Assembly (NCBI RefSeq): GCF_947487575.1
Contig: NZ_CANKXG010000004.1
Span: 186,001 to 250,000 of the forward strand
Direction of reading: 5' to 3'
DNA: 64,000 bases
From: an uncultured Algibacter sp.
GTDB taxonomy: Bacteria; Bacteroidota; Bacteroidia; Flavobacteriales; Flavobacteriaceae
The stretch's first letter is position 1; every line of letters starts with the position of its first letter. Position numbers and translations under genes: made by a program. The notes beneath the pieces are model-generated. The model was not told where the DNA came from and made no database searches. It saw only the letters and a list, made by a program, of their open reading frames with translations. This document shows, piece by piece, positions 19,006 through 52,397 of this stretch.

Positions 19006-19893
19006 CTATTTACGTTGACTTTGTTTGTAGTTTCTAGGAGATTTTCCCATAAAATTTTTGAATATTCTTGAAAAATACAGTGGATCATCAAAACCAATTT
19101 TATAACTAATTTCTTTTATGCTTAAGTCGGTGTAGCTTAAATATTCACAAGCTTTTTGTACTTTTTTTAATTTAAAAAACACAAGTACTGGATACCCCGT
19201 TTTTATTTTAAATTTAGTGTGAAGATATGATTTGGAATAATTAAACCTTGATGCAAGTTCATCTAGCGTGAAGTTTTTGTCCAAATTATTTAACAAATAA
19301 TTTTTTACTAAATCTACTAAATTATCACTTTGATTTGTTTTGGCTATTGATTGAAAGTCGTGATAAACAAATGAGCTTATAAAATTGAGACTCAGCAAAT
19401 TTGCATATTCAATATGATTTAATAAATAATTGTTGTTAAATAAATCAAAGATTTTATTAAACTGATCGATAACGCTTTTTGAAAAAGGAATGTCCTTATA
19501 GTGATTACTGTCTGTTTTTGAATACCTGTTGTAAATTTCTTTACCAAAAGGGCCGTTAAAGTGAAACCAATAAATACTCCAAGGATCAGTATCACTAGCT
19601 TTATATTCGTGTGTTGTGTGCTTTGGTATTATAAAAAAATGATTTGGATTAATTAGTGTTCTTTTATTTTCAATGGTAATCTCGCCTTTGCCTTTGGTGC
19701 AATAGATAAAAATATATTGTTTTGCTCCTTTTTTTCTTGCTCTATAGTGATGATGAGCTAAAGGATAATACCCCAAATCACTAATATAGAATTGTTTAGA
19801 AATAGGATTGTTTTTTACCTGTTCTAAAATAGATTTTGGAAAAGCAATTATTTTTTGCCCCAGAAAGCCTTCTTTTAAAGTGTTTTCATCCAT
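19006..19893 (-). CDS. AraC family transcriptional regulator of the PUL
   Basis: A 295-residue regulator with a cupin-like N-terminal sugar-sensing domain (GYYPLAHHHYRARKKGA, FIIPKHTTHEYKAS, about residues 35-150) and a C-terminal double helix-turn-helix (about 190-290: FTLDELASRFNYSKSYLHTKF and LSIKEISYKIGFDDPLYFSRIF, ending in the GKSPRNYK family tail). It faces away from the PUL, with a 496-base gap to the first PUL gene. Its position and type make it the likely local activator, responding to a released mono- or oligosaccharide; that role is inferred. No hybrid two-component regulator or sigma/anti-sigma pair is present in the PUL. Confidence 0.9.
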   Translation of the reverse strand: MDENTLKEGFLGQKIIAFPKSILEQVKNNPISKQFYISDLGYYPLAHHHYRARKKGAKQYIFIYCTKGKGEITIENKRTLINPNHFFIIPKHTTHEYKASDTDPWSIYWFHFNGPFGKEIYNRYSKTDSNHYKDIPFSKSVIDQFNKIFDLFNNNYLLNHIEYANLLSLNFISSFVYHDFQSIAKTNQSDNLVDLVKNYLLNNLDKNFTLDELASRFNYSKSYLHTKFKIKTGYPVLVFFKLKKVQKACEYLSYTDLSIKEISYKIGFDDPLYFSRIFKNFMGKSPRNYKQSQRK

Positions 19894-20189
19894 TTTTTAA
19901 AATCTATTATCTAGTATTAAATTCATTATATTGACTTATTTTTCTATAAATGTAATGTTTATGTGTTATAAAGGTAGCTAATTATATTTTAAATATTATT
20001 TTTTGAAAGTTTTATTGTCTATATTTTTTAATTCTGTAGTGTTTTTTATATGATACTTAAAAGGCTTAATTCTCAACTTTAATTTTGGAAGTCAAACTTG
20101 ATTTTAAGATATATATTACATTTTTAGTTTTTTAGATAAAAATCATTTAAACTAAACAATATTATCCATGTATATGCTTTTTTTGTCTA

Positions 20190-20219
20190 TTGAACGAAGC
20201 ATTATCTACTATATATTTG
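20190..20219 (+). promoter_or_regulatory. main promoter of the PUL operon
   Basis: TTG at 20190-20192, exactly 19 bases, then TATATTTG at 20212-20219 match the Bacteroidota promoter. Transcription would begin near 20226, leaving a leader of about 160 bases before ATG 20390. The octamer TTGTCTAT overlaps the -33 element (20183-20190) and recurs at 20015-20022. The rest of the long gap (19894-20389) is AT-rich with no gene. Confidence 0.65.
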
Positions 20220-20389
20220 TAATATATTAGCAGTTAAATCCACTTAGATTATCTATTTATTTATAAAATGAATGATTTATTATGAATTATTAATCTTAAA
20301 CTAAACTAACATAGGTAAGCTAATTAATATTAAAAATATCTATGTTTAAAGTAAAATCAACTAAAACTAATTTTAAAAAAACAAAAAAA

Positions 20390-50700: not shown

Positions 50701-50958
50701 AAAGGTATAAAAATGTTAGGGCCTGAATTATTGAGTTTTAGCGCACATCATCAATATAATTCAGATTTTGATGCAGGAGAAACTAAACAACAACGGCATA
50801 CAACAGATGTTTTTAAACGAGATTTAGTAAATATAAATATTGATAAGGTACAAATGGGAGTTGGAGGAGATACTAGCTGGTGGACAAGACCTTTAGAACA
50901 GTATCAAATTGAAGCTAAAAATCAAACGTATTCGTATAGTATTTTGCCTTTACGTTAA
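47752..50958 (+). CDS. GH2 beta-galactosidase, LacZ type, lipoprotein
   Basis: A 1068-residue lipoprotein (FVSC, Cys17). It has the complete LacZ architecture: sugar-binding domain ([13 protein letters not shown]), Ig-like domain, barrel with [28 protein letters not shown], acid/base Glu496 in SLGNEAGNG and nucleophile Glu559 in [12 protein letters not shown], then the Bgal_small_N domain (about 780-1065: [39 protein letters not shown]). It should release terminal beta-galactose in the periplasm or at the surface. Its presence is the best evidence that the PUL substrate contains beta-galactose. It follows the strong terminator and may have its own transcript. Confidence 0.94.
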
Positions 50959-50984
50959 AATTAAAACCTTCAAAATAGTAAAAA

Positions 50985-52397
50985 ATGAATAAATGTTTTA
51001 TAGTTATTATTCTATTGATGGTTGTTACTTTATCATGTAAATCAAAAACAGATAATAAGCAAAGTCAAAATAACAAAATCGATCAGCCAAATATTATCAT
51101 CATTTTGATTGACGATGCAGGTTATGTAGATTTTGGGTTTATGGGAAGTGAAGATTTACAAACACCTCGAATTGACGCTTTAGCAAAAAGCGGAGTGACA
51201 TTTACAGATGCACATGTAAGTGCAACAGTTTGCGCACCATCAAGAGCAGGATTGATAACTGGTAAATACCAACAGCGTTTTGGTTTTGAAGCTAACGGTA
51301 CGGGAGGCATTGGTTTAAGTGATAATGTTACCACAATTGCTGATGTTTTTAAAAATAACGGGTACAATACATATGCTATAGGAAAATGGCATTTAGGATC
51401 AGATGTGTCAGACCATCCTAACCAACGTGGGTTCGATGAATTTTACGGTTTTTTAGCAGGGAGTAGGTCTTACTTCCCTATAAACAATCCTTCAAAAGAA
51501 AAAATGTTGCAACACAATGGAGAGCATATTGTTTTTGATGGATATATGACAGATGTTTTAGGGGAACAATCCATAAAATTTGTTGAAGCATCAAAAGACA
51601 AACCATTTTTTATGTATTTATCCTATAACGCTGTGCATACACCAATGCATGCTAAAGTGGAAGATTTAAAAAAGTTTAAAGACCATCCAAGAAAAGAACT
51701 AGCTGCTATGACATGGAGTTTAGATGAGAATATTGGCAAGTTACTAGATAAATTAGATGATTTAGGAAAAAGGGACAATACCTTAATATATTTTTTAAGT
51801 GATAACGGTGGCGCACACAATAATCAATCATCAACAGGACCATTAAAAGGCTGGAAAGGTAATAAGTTTGAAGGCGGACATCGTGTACCATTTGTTATGT
51901 CATGGCCTAAAGAAATTGTTTCAGGCGCTTCATTTGGTGGCTTAACATCTTCGTTAGATATATTTGAAACGTCTATAGCAGCAGCAAATATTTTAAAACC
52001 AAAAACACTTCAGTTAGATGGTGTAAATTTAATTCCTTACCTAAAAGGAGAAGAACTAGGTGACCCACATAAGCAACTTTTTTGGAGGAAATTAGATGAA
52101 TCTGCTGCTAGAATAGGGGATTATAAAATAATAAATCTGAAATATTATGGTTCAGTCATGTACGATTTGAGTGACGATTTAGATGAAACTATTGATATAT
52201 CTCAAACTAATTCTAAACAATTTGATACCATTTGGTCTGCTTATAATACATGGCAAAATCAATTAATAGACCCTTTATGGCAAGAGGGAAAACCTTGGAT
52301 GGATGTTACATATCATATTCATAAACAGCTTATGCAAAATAAAGAAGCAGAGTATAAGGATATTTGGAGTCCTGCTTTTATAAAACAGAGTAAATAG
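50985..52397 (+). CDS. S1-family sulfatase, lipoprotein (third of three)
   Basis: A 470-residue lipoprotein (VTLSC, Cys18, then a Lys/Asn/Gln-rich spacer). Core motifs are PNIIIILIDDAGYVDFG, Cys83 in CAPSRAGLITGKYQQRFG, AIGKWHLGSD, LSYNAVHTPMHA, and FLSDNGGAHNNQSS with GHRVPF. The Cys is converted to formylglycine by a maturase that is not in this window. The QRFG block after the signature differs from the other two sulfatases, so a third sulfate position is likely. It starts 27 bases after the GH2 stop, and a hairpin at 52418-52459 ends the locus. Confidence 0.92.
   Translation: MNKCFIVIILLMVVTLSCKSKTDNKQSQNNKIDQPNIIIILIDDAGYVDFGFMGSEDLQTPRIDALAKSGVTFTDAHVSATVCAPSRAGLITGKYQQRFGFEANGTGGIGLSDNVTTIADVFKNNGYNTYAIGKWHLGSDVSDHPNQRGFDEFYGFLAGSRSYFPINNPSKEKMLQHNGEHIVFDGYMTDVLGEQSIKFVEASKDKPFFMYLSYNAVHTPMHAKVEDLKKFKDHPRKELAAMTWSLDENIGKLLDKLDDLGKRDNTLIYFLSDNGGAHNNQSSTGPLKGWKGNKFEGGHRVPFVMSWPKEIVSGASFGGLTSSLDIFETSIAAANILKPKTLQLDGVNLIPYLKGEELGDPHKQLFWRKLDESAARIGDYKIINLKYYGSVMYDLSDDLDETIDISQTNSKQFDTIWSAYNTWQNQLIDPLWQEGKPWMDVTYHIHKQLMQNKEAEYKDIWSPAFIKQSK

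Follow-up and report, generated by a model that had tools for sequence, protein, structure and literature searches.

A tRNA-bounded polysaccharide utilisation locus of Flavobacteriaceae predicted to target sulfated galactose-rich glycans, possibly of hydroxyproline-rich proteins

Introduction

Among marine carbon pools, sulfated galactans and glycoproteins are poorly charted, and the stretch studied here (64,000 nucleotides of an uncultured Algibacter sp., in the following the window) raises the question which of them a locus combining sulfatases with GH30, GH2 and GH16 enzymes might serve. A first-pass annotation, made from the sequence alone, had proposed a polysaccharide utilisation locus (PUL) for a sulfated beta-galactan or arabinogalactan, an interpretation that as a whole is partly supported by our analysis. 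Most likely, the PUL allows a marine bacterium to feed on sulfated galactose-rich sugar chains, possibly borne by hydroxyproline-rich algal or seagrass proteins.

Results

Gene content and extent

Adjacent SusC and SusD genes with co-directed CAZyme genes confirmed positions 19006-52397 as a SusCD-type PUL (Table 1). The uninterrupted run from the SusE-like gene to sulfatase 3, opposite an AraC gene on the minus strand, was seen again as first described, and every enzyme class and count given at that time (two GH30, three GH2, GH16, three sulfatases, and a GH51-like enzyme) proved right. Missing from that gene list were the MFS, GDSL, DUF5107, and T9SS genes, and its extent omitted two minus-strand genes, which are PUL members too because they lie within the synteny and inside the insertion borders. 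Comparison of one of them, CTD2, with the PDB by sequence matched the T9SS tail alone. The sulfatase maturase had been expected outside the locus; accordingly, an FGE-family protein (393 aa, 262.9 bits) was found on contig C1, while no anSME scored above its cut-off.

Table 1. Features of the PUL and its borders (positions within the window)
Feature	Position	Strand	Evidence or remark
tRNA-Arg(tct), left insertion border	18721..18795	+	tRNA and downstream hairpin kept in PUL-free congeners
AraC-family regulator, cupin domain	19006..19893	-	Pfam
SusE/SusF-like lipoprotein, acidic lipoprotein tail	20342..21814	+	SusF_SusE 24.4 bits, under its cut-off
SusC-type TonB-dependent importer	21875..24922	+	TIGR04056 784 bits
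SusD-type glycan-binding lipoprotein	24927..26507	+	PF07980 114 bits
GH30A, acidic surface-type lipoprotein tail	26528..28141	+	PF14587 310 bits; nearest structure 3clw (GH30_4)
GHx, predicted clan GH-A glycosidase, acidic surface-type tail	28225..29643	+	no Pfam/NCBIfam match; presumed catalytic E186, E295
GH30B, non-acidic tail (periplasmic type)	29649..31259	+	PF14587 457 bits
Sulfatase 1, predicted Gal-4S exo-sulfatase	31246..32904	+	nearest structures S1_16: 6ust GalNAc-6S, 9fo1 Gal-4S
MFS sugar porter	32961..34361	+	Pfam, NCBIfam
GDSL/SGNH esterase	34374..35117	+	Pfam
GH2A exo-beta-glycosidase	35131..37971	+	nearest structure 8u01, 1090 bits
DUF5107+TPR protein	38012..41308	+	Pfam; no signal peptide seen by eye
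Sulfatase 2, predicted Gal-6S sulfatase	41301..42839	+	nearest structures S1_15: 9bas, 9bau, 7oze
GH2B exo-beta-glycosidase, GH2A paralogue	42875..45685	+	Pfam; nearest structure 8u01
GH16 endo-glycanase, acidic lipoprotein tail (by eye)	45763..46644	+	E179/D181/E184 kept 9/9
T9SS-secreted small protein, presumed carbohydrate-binding module	46750..47601	+	T9SS tail
LacZ-type GH2 beta-galactosidase	47752..50958	+	Pfam
Sulfatase 3	50985..52397	+	nearest structures carrageenan sulfatases incl. S1_19 (6prm exo-4S)
Fibronectin-III/SusE-like lipoprotein, acidic tail	52491..53201	-	Pfam, synteny
CTD2, T9SS-secreted, 1030 aa, six Asp-box motifs (beta-propeller type)	53204..56296	-	Pfam, NCBIfam
SpoU methylase, right insertion border	56518..56976	+	adjoins tRNA-Arg in PUL-free congeners

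Conservation and genomic insertion

The PUL neighbourhood was found again in 19 named Flavobacteriaceae loci, while the marker gene GHx occurred in only 6 of 397 genomes of the family, its own genome counted. Algibacter pectinivorans and Seonamhaeicola sediminis carry all 20 PUL genes, and six further genomes carry 13-19 of them (two of these, both Hyunsoonleella, were assembled from locus fragments truncated on the 3' side), so that the gene combination is not due to chance. The DUF5107+TPR protein and the MFS porter were the best conserved genes (80-92% across the 8 genomes compared); in Flavicella sediminum, LacZ was matched as two fragments only and sulfatase 3 was unmatched. Catalytic motifs were intact throughout, counting one orthologue per genome with the window included, leaving out one sulfatase 1 row with an internal stop (L047), and keeping out paralogues of about 35% identity (GH30A, GH2B). 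Thus counted, the presumed catalytic pairs were kept in GH30A (E216/E340, 14/14), GH30B (E223/E343, 19/19), GH2A (E455/E540, 19/19), GH2B (E434/E527, 12/12), and LacZ (E496/E559, 8/8), as were the formylglycine Cys and Arg of sulfatases 1 (18/18), 2 (12/12), and 3 (7/7).

A unit of about 37.7 kb is inserted between the tRNA-Arg(tct) and SpoU genes, a junction that five of the seven congeneric genomes compared display without the PUL; in several carriers, a tRNA or tmRNA likewise lies at the PUL edge. By its borders, the PUL appears to be a gene block gained beside a tRNA in a precise acquisition event. At the right border, the best match to the tRNA 3' end, sought as a possible attachment repeat, was an unconvincing 10 bp, and Pfam revealed no integrase among 30 window proteins, a set outside which the ORFs at 86-8896, 9275-9724, 11959-12390, and 59992-63107 fall. 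With 0.31-0.36 in 4-kb windows, the G+C content of the insert only slightly exceeds that of the flanks, which is no proof of foreign origin.

Sulfatases

All sulfatases carry the formylglycine site C-x-P/A-x-R, and their nearest solved relatives place them, as a prediction, close to S1_16 (sulfatase 1), S1_15 (sulfatase 2), and S1_19 (sulfatase 3). In the parts of the literature covered, S1_15 enzymes act on Gal-6S or Gal/GalNAc-6S, S1_16 includes Gal-4S members, and S1_19 acts on 4S-carrageenan. With both Gal-4S and Gal-6S enzymes among the nearest structures, the originally proposed sulfated beta-galactan or arabinogalactan gains support; the galactan of Codium, for instance, consists of 3-linked beta-Gal with 3,6-branches and is sulfated mostly at C4 and less at C6. 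The top structure match of sulfatase 1, 6ust, is however a GalNAc-6S enzyme, which counts against the galactan reading.

Carrageenan sulfatases also stand among the nearest structures of sulfatases 1 and 3, as would be expected if the PUL served a red-algal galactan of the carrageenan, agar, or porphyran type. We regard this as very improbable, since the Pfam results for the 20 genes lacked GH110 (a trait of the lambda-carrageenan PUL; E up to 0.001), GH127, and other named families of the carrageenan pathway, and relatives in S1_15 and S1_16 act on Gal-4S/6S outside carrageenan as well. GH150 gave no match in these results either, though Pfam may lack a GH150 model.

GH30, GH2, and GH16 enzymes

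The first-pass annotation had seen galactanase-like motifs in the GH30 enzymes. This holds for the Gln at the presumed galactose-O4-reading place of GH30_5, which is kept in GH30A (Q230, 14/14) and GH30B (Q233, 19/19), its equivalence being based on the spacing from the acid/base Glu and the GH30A-GH30B alignment; the GH30_5 subsite -1 set of the catalytic Glu pair and Asn/Gln is likewise present in all of these orthologues. As to the subfamily, the nearest structure of GH30A, 3clw, points to GH30_4, a group elsewhere given as beta-fucosidases, rather than to the GH30_5 galactanases, which counts against a galactan. PMC13431644 assigns 3clw to GH30_4, as uncharacterised, and describes the GH30_5 endo-beta-1,6-galactanase Sa16Gal30A, with which both enzymes share the GH30 scaffold, the Glu pair, an Asn before the acid/base, and a Gln shortly after it. 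Sa16Gal30A, in contrast, has the subsite -2 Asp and Trp (loop 8) of GH30_5, which we did not recognise by eye in GH30A or GH30B. The best structure matches of GH16 were laminarinases with a low score, which also counts against a galactan. GH2A and GH2B share 8u01 as their nearest structure, for which no paper was traced.

Beta-1,6-glucan, disfavoured from the beginning, was rejected as a substrate, with NF053856 reaching only 36 bits against GH30B (cut-off 700).

A type II arabinogalactan PUL is defined by a GH43 exo-beta-1,3-galactanase together with GH30_5, and GH43 or GH35 would be expected in a land-plant AGP locus. Neither GH43 (E up to 0.001) nor GH35 was matched by Pfam in the 20 genes, so that the locus falls outside this definition.

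GHx, a clan GH-A protein outside Pfam

GHx of the window had no match in Pfam, NCBIfam, or, by sequence, the PDB. Its group comprises 30 named loci with 25-82% identity, and none of the 30 aligned members matched a Pfam glycosidase family (GH51 models 0/30 at E up to 1). An AlphaFold2 model built on the 30 sequences (pLDDT 91.0; a 3-sequence model of 47.7 was set aside) predicts a clan GH-A barrel with a beta-sandwich and two presumed catalytic Glu, as in the GH51 fold. The earlier term "GH51-like" is therefore apt for the fold, but not for the family: since the scores of GH79-type, GH39, GH30, and GH44 chains come close to that of GH51, no family was chosen. In Carboxylicivirga, a single frame of 697 aa contains the GHx domain followed by a stretch 28% identical to the T9SS-secreted small protein.

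Hydroxyproline operon in relatives

In several relatives, genes for hydroxyproline catabolism accompany the PUL. Annotated in H. ulvae with Pfam and NCBIfam, the operon consists of an AraC regulator, a DHDPS-like protein, an aldehyde dehydrogenase, a 4-hydroxyproline epimerase (NF010578, 591.7 bits, cut-off 376), and an FAD oxidase, and thus of the epimerase, oxidase, DHDPS-type deaminase, and aldehyde dehydrogenase typical of 4-hydroxyproline catabolic operons. Of the 15 carriers with an epimerase-family gene, seven have the operon inside or directly beside the PUL, in four arrangements, and homologues of all five genes are present in these seven genomes. For independent genomes, chance linkage would have P(>=7) of 1.8e-9 and P(>=4) of 8e-5, a post hoc figure for genomes that are in fact related. 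One carrier (G405) additionally harbors an Xaa-Pro dipeptidyl-peptidase gene about 11 kb beyond the PUL (748 bits, cut-off 642). Because of this linkage, a sulfated (arabino)galactan on a hydroxyproline-rich glycoprotein is suggested; more precisely, we see an even chance that this is a mobile PUL for sulfated beta-(1,3/1,6)-galactan or arabinogalactan on an algal or seagrass glycoprotein rich in hydroxyproline (AGP-like).

Several observations count against the glycoprotein. The epimerase family is not much commoner in carriers (15/21, none being found in the other six) than among the family genomes (212/395), and Pfam revealed no peptidase in the PUL of the window. The eight unlinked epimerase carriers are the window's genome, in which the gene lies on a separate contig (C3) and no neighbouring aldehyde dehydrogenase was found, and seven others. 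The location of these genes elsewhere would also suit a pyruvylated sulfated beta-1,3-galactan of the Codium/Bryopsidales type that is not bound to protein, in which case the operon would be an occasional passenger at shared genomic hot spots. Such a polymer, whose beta-Gal carries 4S and 6S as well as 3,6-branches, would match the sulfatases and the GH16/GH30/GH2 set, and the tRNA or tmRNA genes at PUL edges fit as well. We nevertheless consider it unlikely, as the four operon-PUL arrangements would then be coincidence, no pyruvate-ketal hydrolase was recognised, and the same operon lies near GH127 and prolyl-peptidase genes in two control genomes (G161 and G167).

Collagen yields hydroxyproline, too, and one carrier is named Salegentibacter holothuriorum, so that a locus for a sulfated glycan and hydroxyproline-rich collagen of marine invertebrates was also considered. 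This appears very improbable, since Pfam revealed no collagenase, hexosaminidase, or glycosaminoglycan lyase in the window's PUL and the epimerase was not found in S. holothuriorum (G475).

Discussion

The sequence itself documents the gene set, its intact catalytic motifs and conservation, the borders of the insertion, and the operon linkage in seven relatives. For the sulfated galactose-rich chains favoured here, we infer substrate, linkages, order of steps, and cell locations as follows. Outside the cell, T9SS-secreted binding proteins and the acidic-tailed GH16, GHx, and GH30A would bind and cut the polymer, and SusE, SusD, and SusC would bring the pieces in. Sulfatases 1 and 3 (Gal-4S), sulfatase 2 (Gal-6S), and the GDSL esterase may then remove decorations in the periplasm, where GH30B, GH2A, GH2B, and LacZ may free sugars, and the MFS porter may take these up; in several relatives, the linked operon would burn released hydroxyproline. 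No account of this PUL was recognised in those parts of the literature on sulfated galactan, arabinogalactan, Codium, Hyunsoonleella, GH30, DUF5107, and the sulfatase structures that were covered, the North Sea PUL survey (PMC6298971) included, with hydroxyproline and PULs outside this scope. Tentatively, and with some doubt, it could be the first PUL to be recognised as serving sulfated galactan glycoproteins with hydroxyproline linkage from marine algae or seagrass, disseminated as a tRNA-bounded island often with its own hydroxyproline pathway. GHx would in that case found a new family of clan GH-A and, together with an S1_16-type sulfatase, give access to 4-sulfated galactan or a sugar-hydroxyproline core. 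The hydroxyproline pathway in relatives would then point to the protein carrier of the glycan, which CAZyme lists alone cannot do, and a group of glycosidases that lacks a Pfam family and is tied to a sulfatase is brought to light. These readings are testable in named type strains.

Compared with known systems, GHx shares only about 13% identity with GH51 alpha-L-arabinofuranosidases, differs in having no Pfam domain, and is fitted nearly equally well by GH30 and GH79-type chains. One further sulfatase system holds a close relative of sulfatase 1 (373.5 bits), whereas the genetic context here is another and no carrageenase was recognised. According to PMC12549532, the lambda-carrageenan PUL of Pseudoalteromonas distincta likewise attacks a sulfated galactan with a GH2 exo-beta-galactosidase and S1_15 Gal-6S sulfatases in turn, but has GH150, GH110, and S1_8 in place of the GH30, GH16, GHx, and S1_16-/S1_19-like sulfatases found here. 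The loci of G161 and G167, which we take to be of the extensin type, encode GH127 (in G167 also a GH51-type arabinofuranosidase) and prolyl peptidases, enzymes for sulfated galactan being absent from their scanned parts, and share with the PUL relatives Sus gene(s), glycosidases, and the hydroxyproline operon.

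Gene content and conservation of the PUL

The window is part of contig C4 of a 3.5-Mb genome (99.9% complete), whose congeners include Algibacter pectinivorans. The gene list of the first-pass annotation for the polysaccharide utilisation locus (PUL) was borne out by the gene and domain tables of the window; its extent, given as 19006-52397, proved too short, as the full 20-gene span from AraC to the minus-strand 1030-aa protein CTD2 recurs in relatives. Scoring a gene as present at an identity of at least 40% over at least 70%, we found 20 of 20 genes in A. pectinivorans and Seonamhaeicola sediminis, 19 in genome G405 (AraC, GH16, and CTD2 matches lying in a second cluster past the PUL), 18 in Flavicella sediminum, Aestuariivivens insulae, and Hyunsoonleella pacifica, 14 in Hyunsoonleella ulvae, and 13 in Algibacter pacificus. 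Both Hyunsoonleella loci were joined from two pieces and end early on the 3' side, so that their missing genes may be cut-offs. All eight genomes compared matched AraC, the clan GH-A glycosidase GHx, GH30B, Sulf1, MFS, GDSL, GH2A, DUF5107, Sulf2, and GH2B.

Presumed catalytic residues were intact in every aligned orthologue of GH30A (14 rows), GH30B (19), GH2A (19), GH2B (12), GH16 (9), the LacZ-type GH2 (8), and GHx (21), with one row per genome, the window counted, at least 50% identity, and at least 85% coverage; the 3' genes had been fetched for only part of the 21 carriers of the GHx PUL. For GH2, GH16, and GHx, these residues were picked by motif and are presumably the catalytic ones. 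All three PUL sulfatases (Sulf1, Sulf2, Sulf3) revealed cysteine-type formylglycine sites. The Sulf1 frame of an uncultured Polaribacter copy (L047) has an internal stop, and this row was left out of the alignment. The genome of the window contained 19 sulfatase matches, no anSME above the cut-off, and four FGE-family proteins, the best of which (393 aa, contig C1) we infer to be the maturase of the PUL sulfatases.

An acidic tail after the lipobox cysteine, as is characteristic of surface-exported lipoproteins, was detected in SusE, SusD, GH30A, and GHx and, read by eye, in GH16, and was absent or hardly present in GH30B, Sulf1, Sulf3, GH2A, GH2B, and LacZ; the lipobox script misplaced the cysteine of GH16, overlooked the Sulf3 cysteine of the window, and detected a lipobox in some of the rows only. 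GH30A, GHx, and GH16 have a near-identical tail in common, their catalytic domains being unrelated or remote.

Distribution of GHx and its neighbours

The GHx enzyme group has no Pfam family. GHx was identified in 6 of 397 family genomes and at high score in 3 of 149 relatives, the window's genome counted in both, with five more, weak matches near 1e-4 among the relatives. A named genome collection contained 30 GHx loci, 19 of them in Flavobacteriaceae; the family was looked up for Hyunsoonleella, Seonamhaeicola, Aestuariivivens, Zunongwangia, Salegentibacter, Winogradskyella, Polaribacter, and Flavicella, and Algibacter and Flavobacterium belong to it as well. Sulf1, GH30B, MFS, and GDSL all lay within 10 kb of GHx in 19/19 of these loci, including L045 with partial GH30B and GDSL, L049 with GH30B in two pieces, and L057 and L058, where the gene counted as Sulf1 lies upstream of SusE and is a relative at 44-45%. 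GH30A was found in 12 and SusC/SusD in 17 of the 19. Outside this family, a Sulf1-like gene (42-45%) lay directly upstream of GHx in four of four cases (Pedobacter segetis, Chitinophaga alhagiae, and two Carboxylicivirga); none was evident at this position in L067-L071 or at the second copies in L064 and L065, short contigs being among these loci.

Putative substrate

Comparison with a structure library placed Sulf2 closest to S1_15 enzymes, Sulf1 closest to S1_16 (4S-Gal/GalNAc, kappa-carrageenan 4S) with the GalNAc-6S enzyme 6ust as top match, and Sulf3 closest to carrageenan sulfatases, S1_19 4S among them. In the literature cited, S1_15 activity is given as Gal-6S or Gal/GalNAc-6S. The nearest structure to GH30A was 3clw, which PMC13431644 lists as an uncharacterised GH30_4; GH30_4 enzymes are given as beta-fucosidases and GH30_5 enzymes as beta-1,6-galactanases in PMC11058611. 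The counterpart of the GH30_5 glutamine that reads galactose O4, equated by spacing and by alignment of GH30A with GH30B, was retained in all aligned rows of both. GH16 matched laminarinases and other GH16 in the PDB at 22-46 bits, too weak for naming a linkage. The substrate is likely a sulfated beta-galactan. Codium galactan, for comparison, contains 3-linked beta-Gal with 4S and 6S, 3,6-branches, and pyruvate ketals, as outlined in the reviews PMC4178480 and PMC6801904.

Hydroxyproline operon in carriers and controls

In H. ulvae and S. sediminis, we identified a five-gene hydroxyproline set inside the PUL. The H. ulvae epimerase scored 591.7 bits, well above 376, the cut-off of the 4-hydroxyproline epimerase model. 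The epimerase family occurred in 15 of 21 Flavobacteriaceae carriers (the window's own genome, 19 named ones, and G405; background 212/395) and also in two Carboxylicivirga genomes. Homologues of all five genes lay inside or abutting the PUL in 7 of the 15: before CTD2 in Hyunsoonleella flava, H. ulvae, Seonamhaeicola aphaedonensis, and S. sediminis, directly before SusE in G405, before AraC in Polaribacter BM10, and after CTD2 in A. pectinivorans. In the other eight, including the window's genome, the epimerase family was on another contig or at least ~90 kb away, six of these cases being separate contigs of draft assemblies. The chance of 7/15 within a 60-kb zone was 1.8e-9 assuming independence, and that of at least four 8e-5, both post hoc. 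The G405 neighbourhood also revealed a Xaa-Pro dipeptidyl-peptidase, a GH16 protein bearing F5/8 domains, and an Asp-box protein that resembles CTD2.

Among 20 hand-picked epimerase-bearing controls, none of them GHx-positive in the surveys of 397 family genomes and 149 relatives, no GHx-type PUL lay beside the operon. A SusC-like gene was within 10 kb in three (L121, L135, L136), and sulfatase matches were nearby in two others (L130, L139). LacZ was matched near the operon in L124 and L136, MFS in L126. Two of the SusC-linked controls (G161, G167) carried GH127, DPP-IV/prolyl peptidases, and DUF885 (Pfam) near the operon, G167 also a GH51-type arabinofuranosidase; these neighbourhoods would fit an extensin-type locus. 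In G007, the third of these controls, one additional protein was scanned and showed nothing of this kind. L135, L136, and L143 are possibly extensin-type glycoprotein loci in Flavobacteriaceae. The operon beside a PUL is thus a candidate marker of hydroxyproline-linked glycans, a plausible, not proven, role. A sulfated galactan on a hydroxyproline glycoprotein is the best-supported refinement of the sulfated beta-galactan reading.

Coordinates of features in the window and in related loci
Feature	Location	Remark
Hydroxyproline operon inside/beside PUL	L065:13787-19613, L076:13911-19813, L018 (from ~6400), L108:12238-19999	relatives
Operon near GH127, DUF885, DPP-IV genes	L135, L136, L143	GH51-type enzyme in L143
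Extra ~625-aa sulfatase between Sulf2 and GH2B	L064:4875-6752	same place in L065, L077, L080, L084, L087; none seen in window, A. pectinivorans, Flavicella
Tandem GHx, two further copies	L064:9848-13048	H. pacifica
Tandem GHx, two further copies	L065:9842-13337	H. ulvae
Tandem GHx, two	L060:9944-12987	Pedobacter segetis
LacZ, fragments only	L019:1491-2116	Flavicella sediminum
Many further sulfatase matches	C3:15756-62818 (window's genome)	likely other sulfated-glycan loci
Tail C-S-x4-T-[DS]-P-[ND]-D-[PE]-K-F	window 26528, 28225, 45763	GH30A, GHx, GH16
Flavo-1 RNA match	window 15507-15578	47.1 bits (cut-off 42), directly 3' of SHMT gene
tRNA-Arg(tct)	window 18721-18795	
SpoU	window 56518-56976	

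Insertion at tRNA-Arg(tct)/SpoU

In the window and in Hyunsoonleella flava, the PUL fills an insertion site at the tRNA-Arg(tct)/SpoU junction; several congeners have this site empty. The flanking gene was present in nine congeners, two of which, on short contigs, were left out of the junction comparison. Among the seven fetched, tRNA and SpoU adjoin without the PUL in five; in the sixth (L159), a THUMP gene adjoins the tRNA and SpoU was not detected, and in the seventh (L160) the tRNA was not found. Similarity to PUL-free sites stops at ~18836, right after the downstream hairpin of the tRNA, and returns at ~56513, indicating an insertion of ~37.7 kb. A. pectinivorans carries the PUL on another contig, its equivalent site being empty, and H. 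flava, of another genus, has a copy between the same tRNA-Arg and THUMP/SpoU genes, with the SpoU match truncated by the end of the stretch. An old insertion since lost from most congeners would be a possible explanation of this pattern.

Elsewhere, the 5' edge of the PUL is marked by tRNA-Pro in H. ulvae and tRNA-Met in S. aphaedonensis and S. sediminis, and A. pectinivorans has a tmRNA past the hydroxyproline operon; overall, tRNA/tmRNA genes were found in 5 of 16 PUL loci scanned and in none of the other 11, several loci having less than 1 kb of flank. No integrase or repeat was recognised. Altogether, the PUL is real, conserved, and apparently mobile, and of a known kind.
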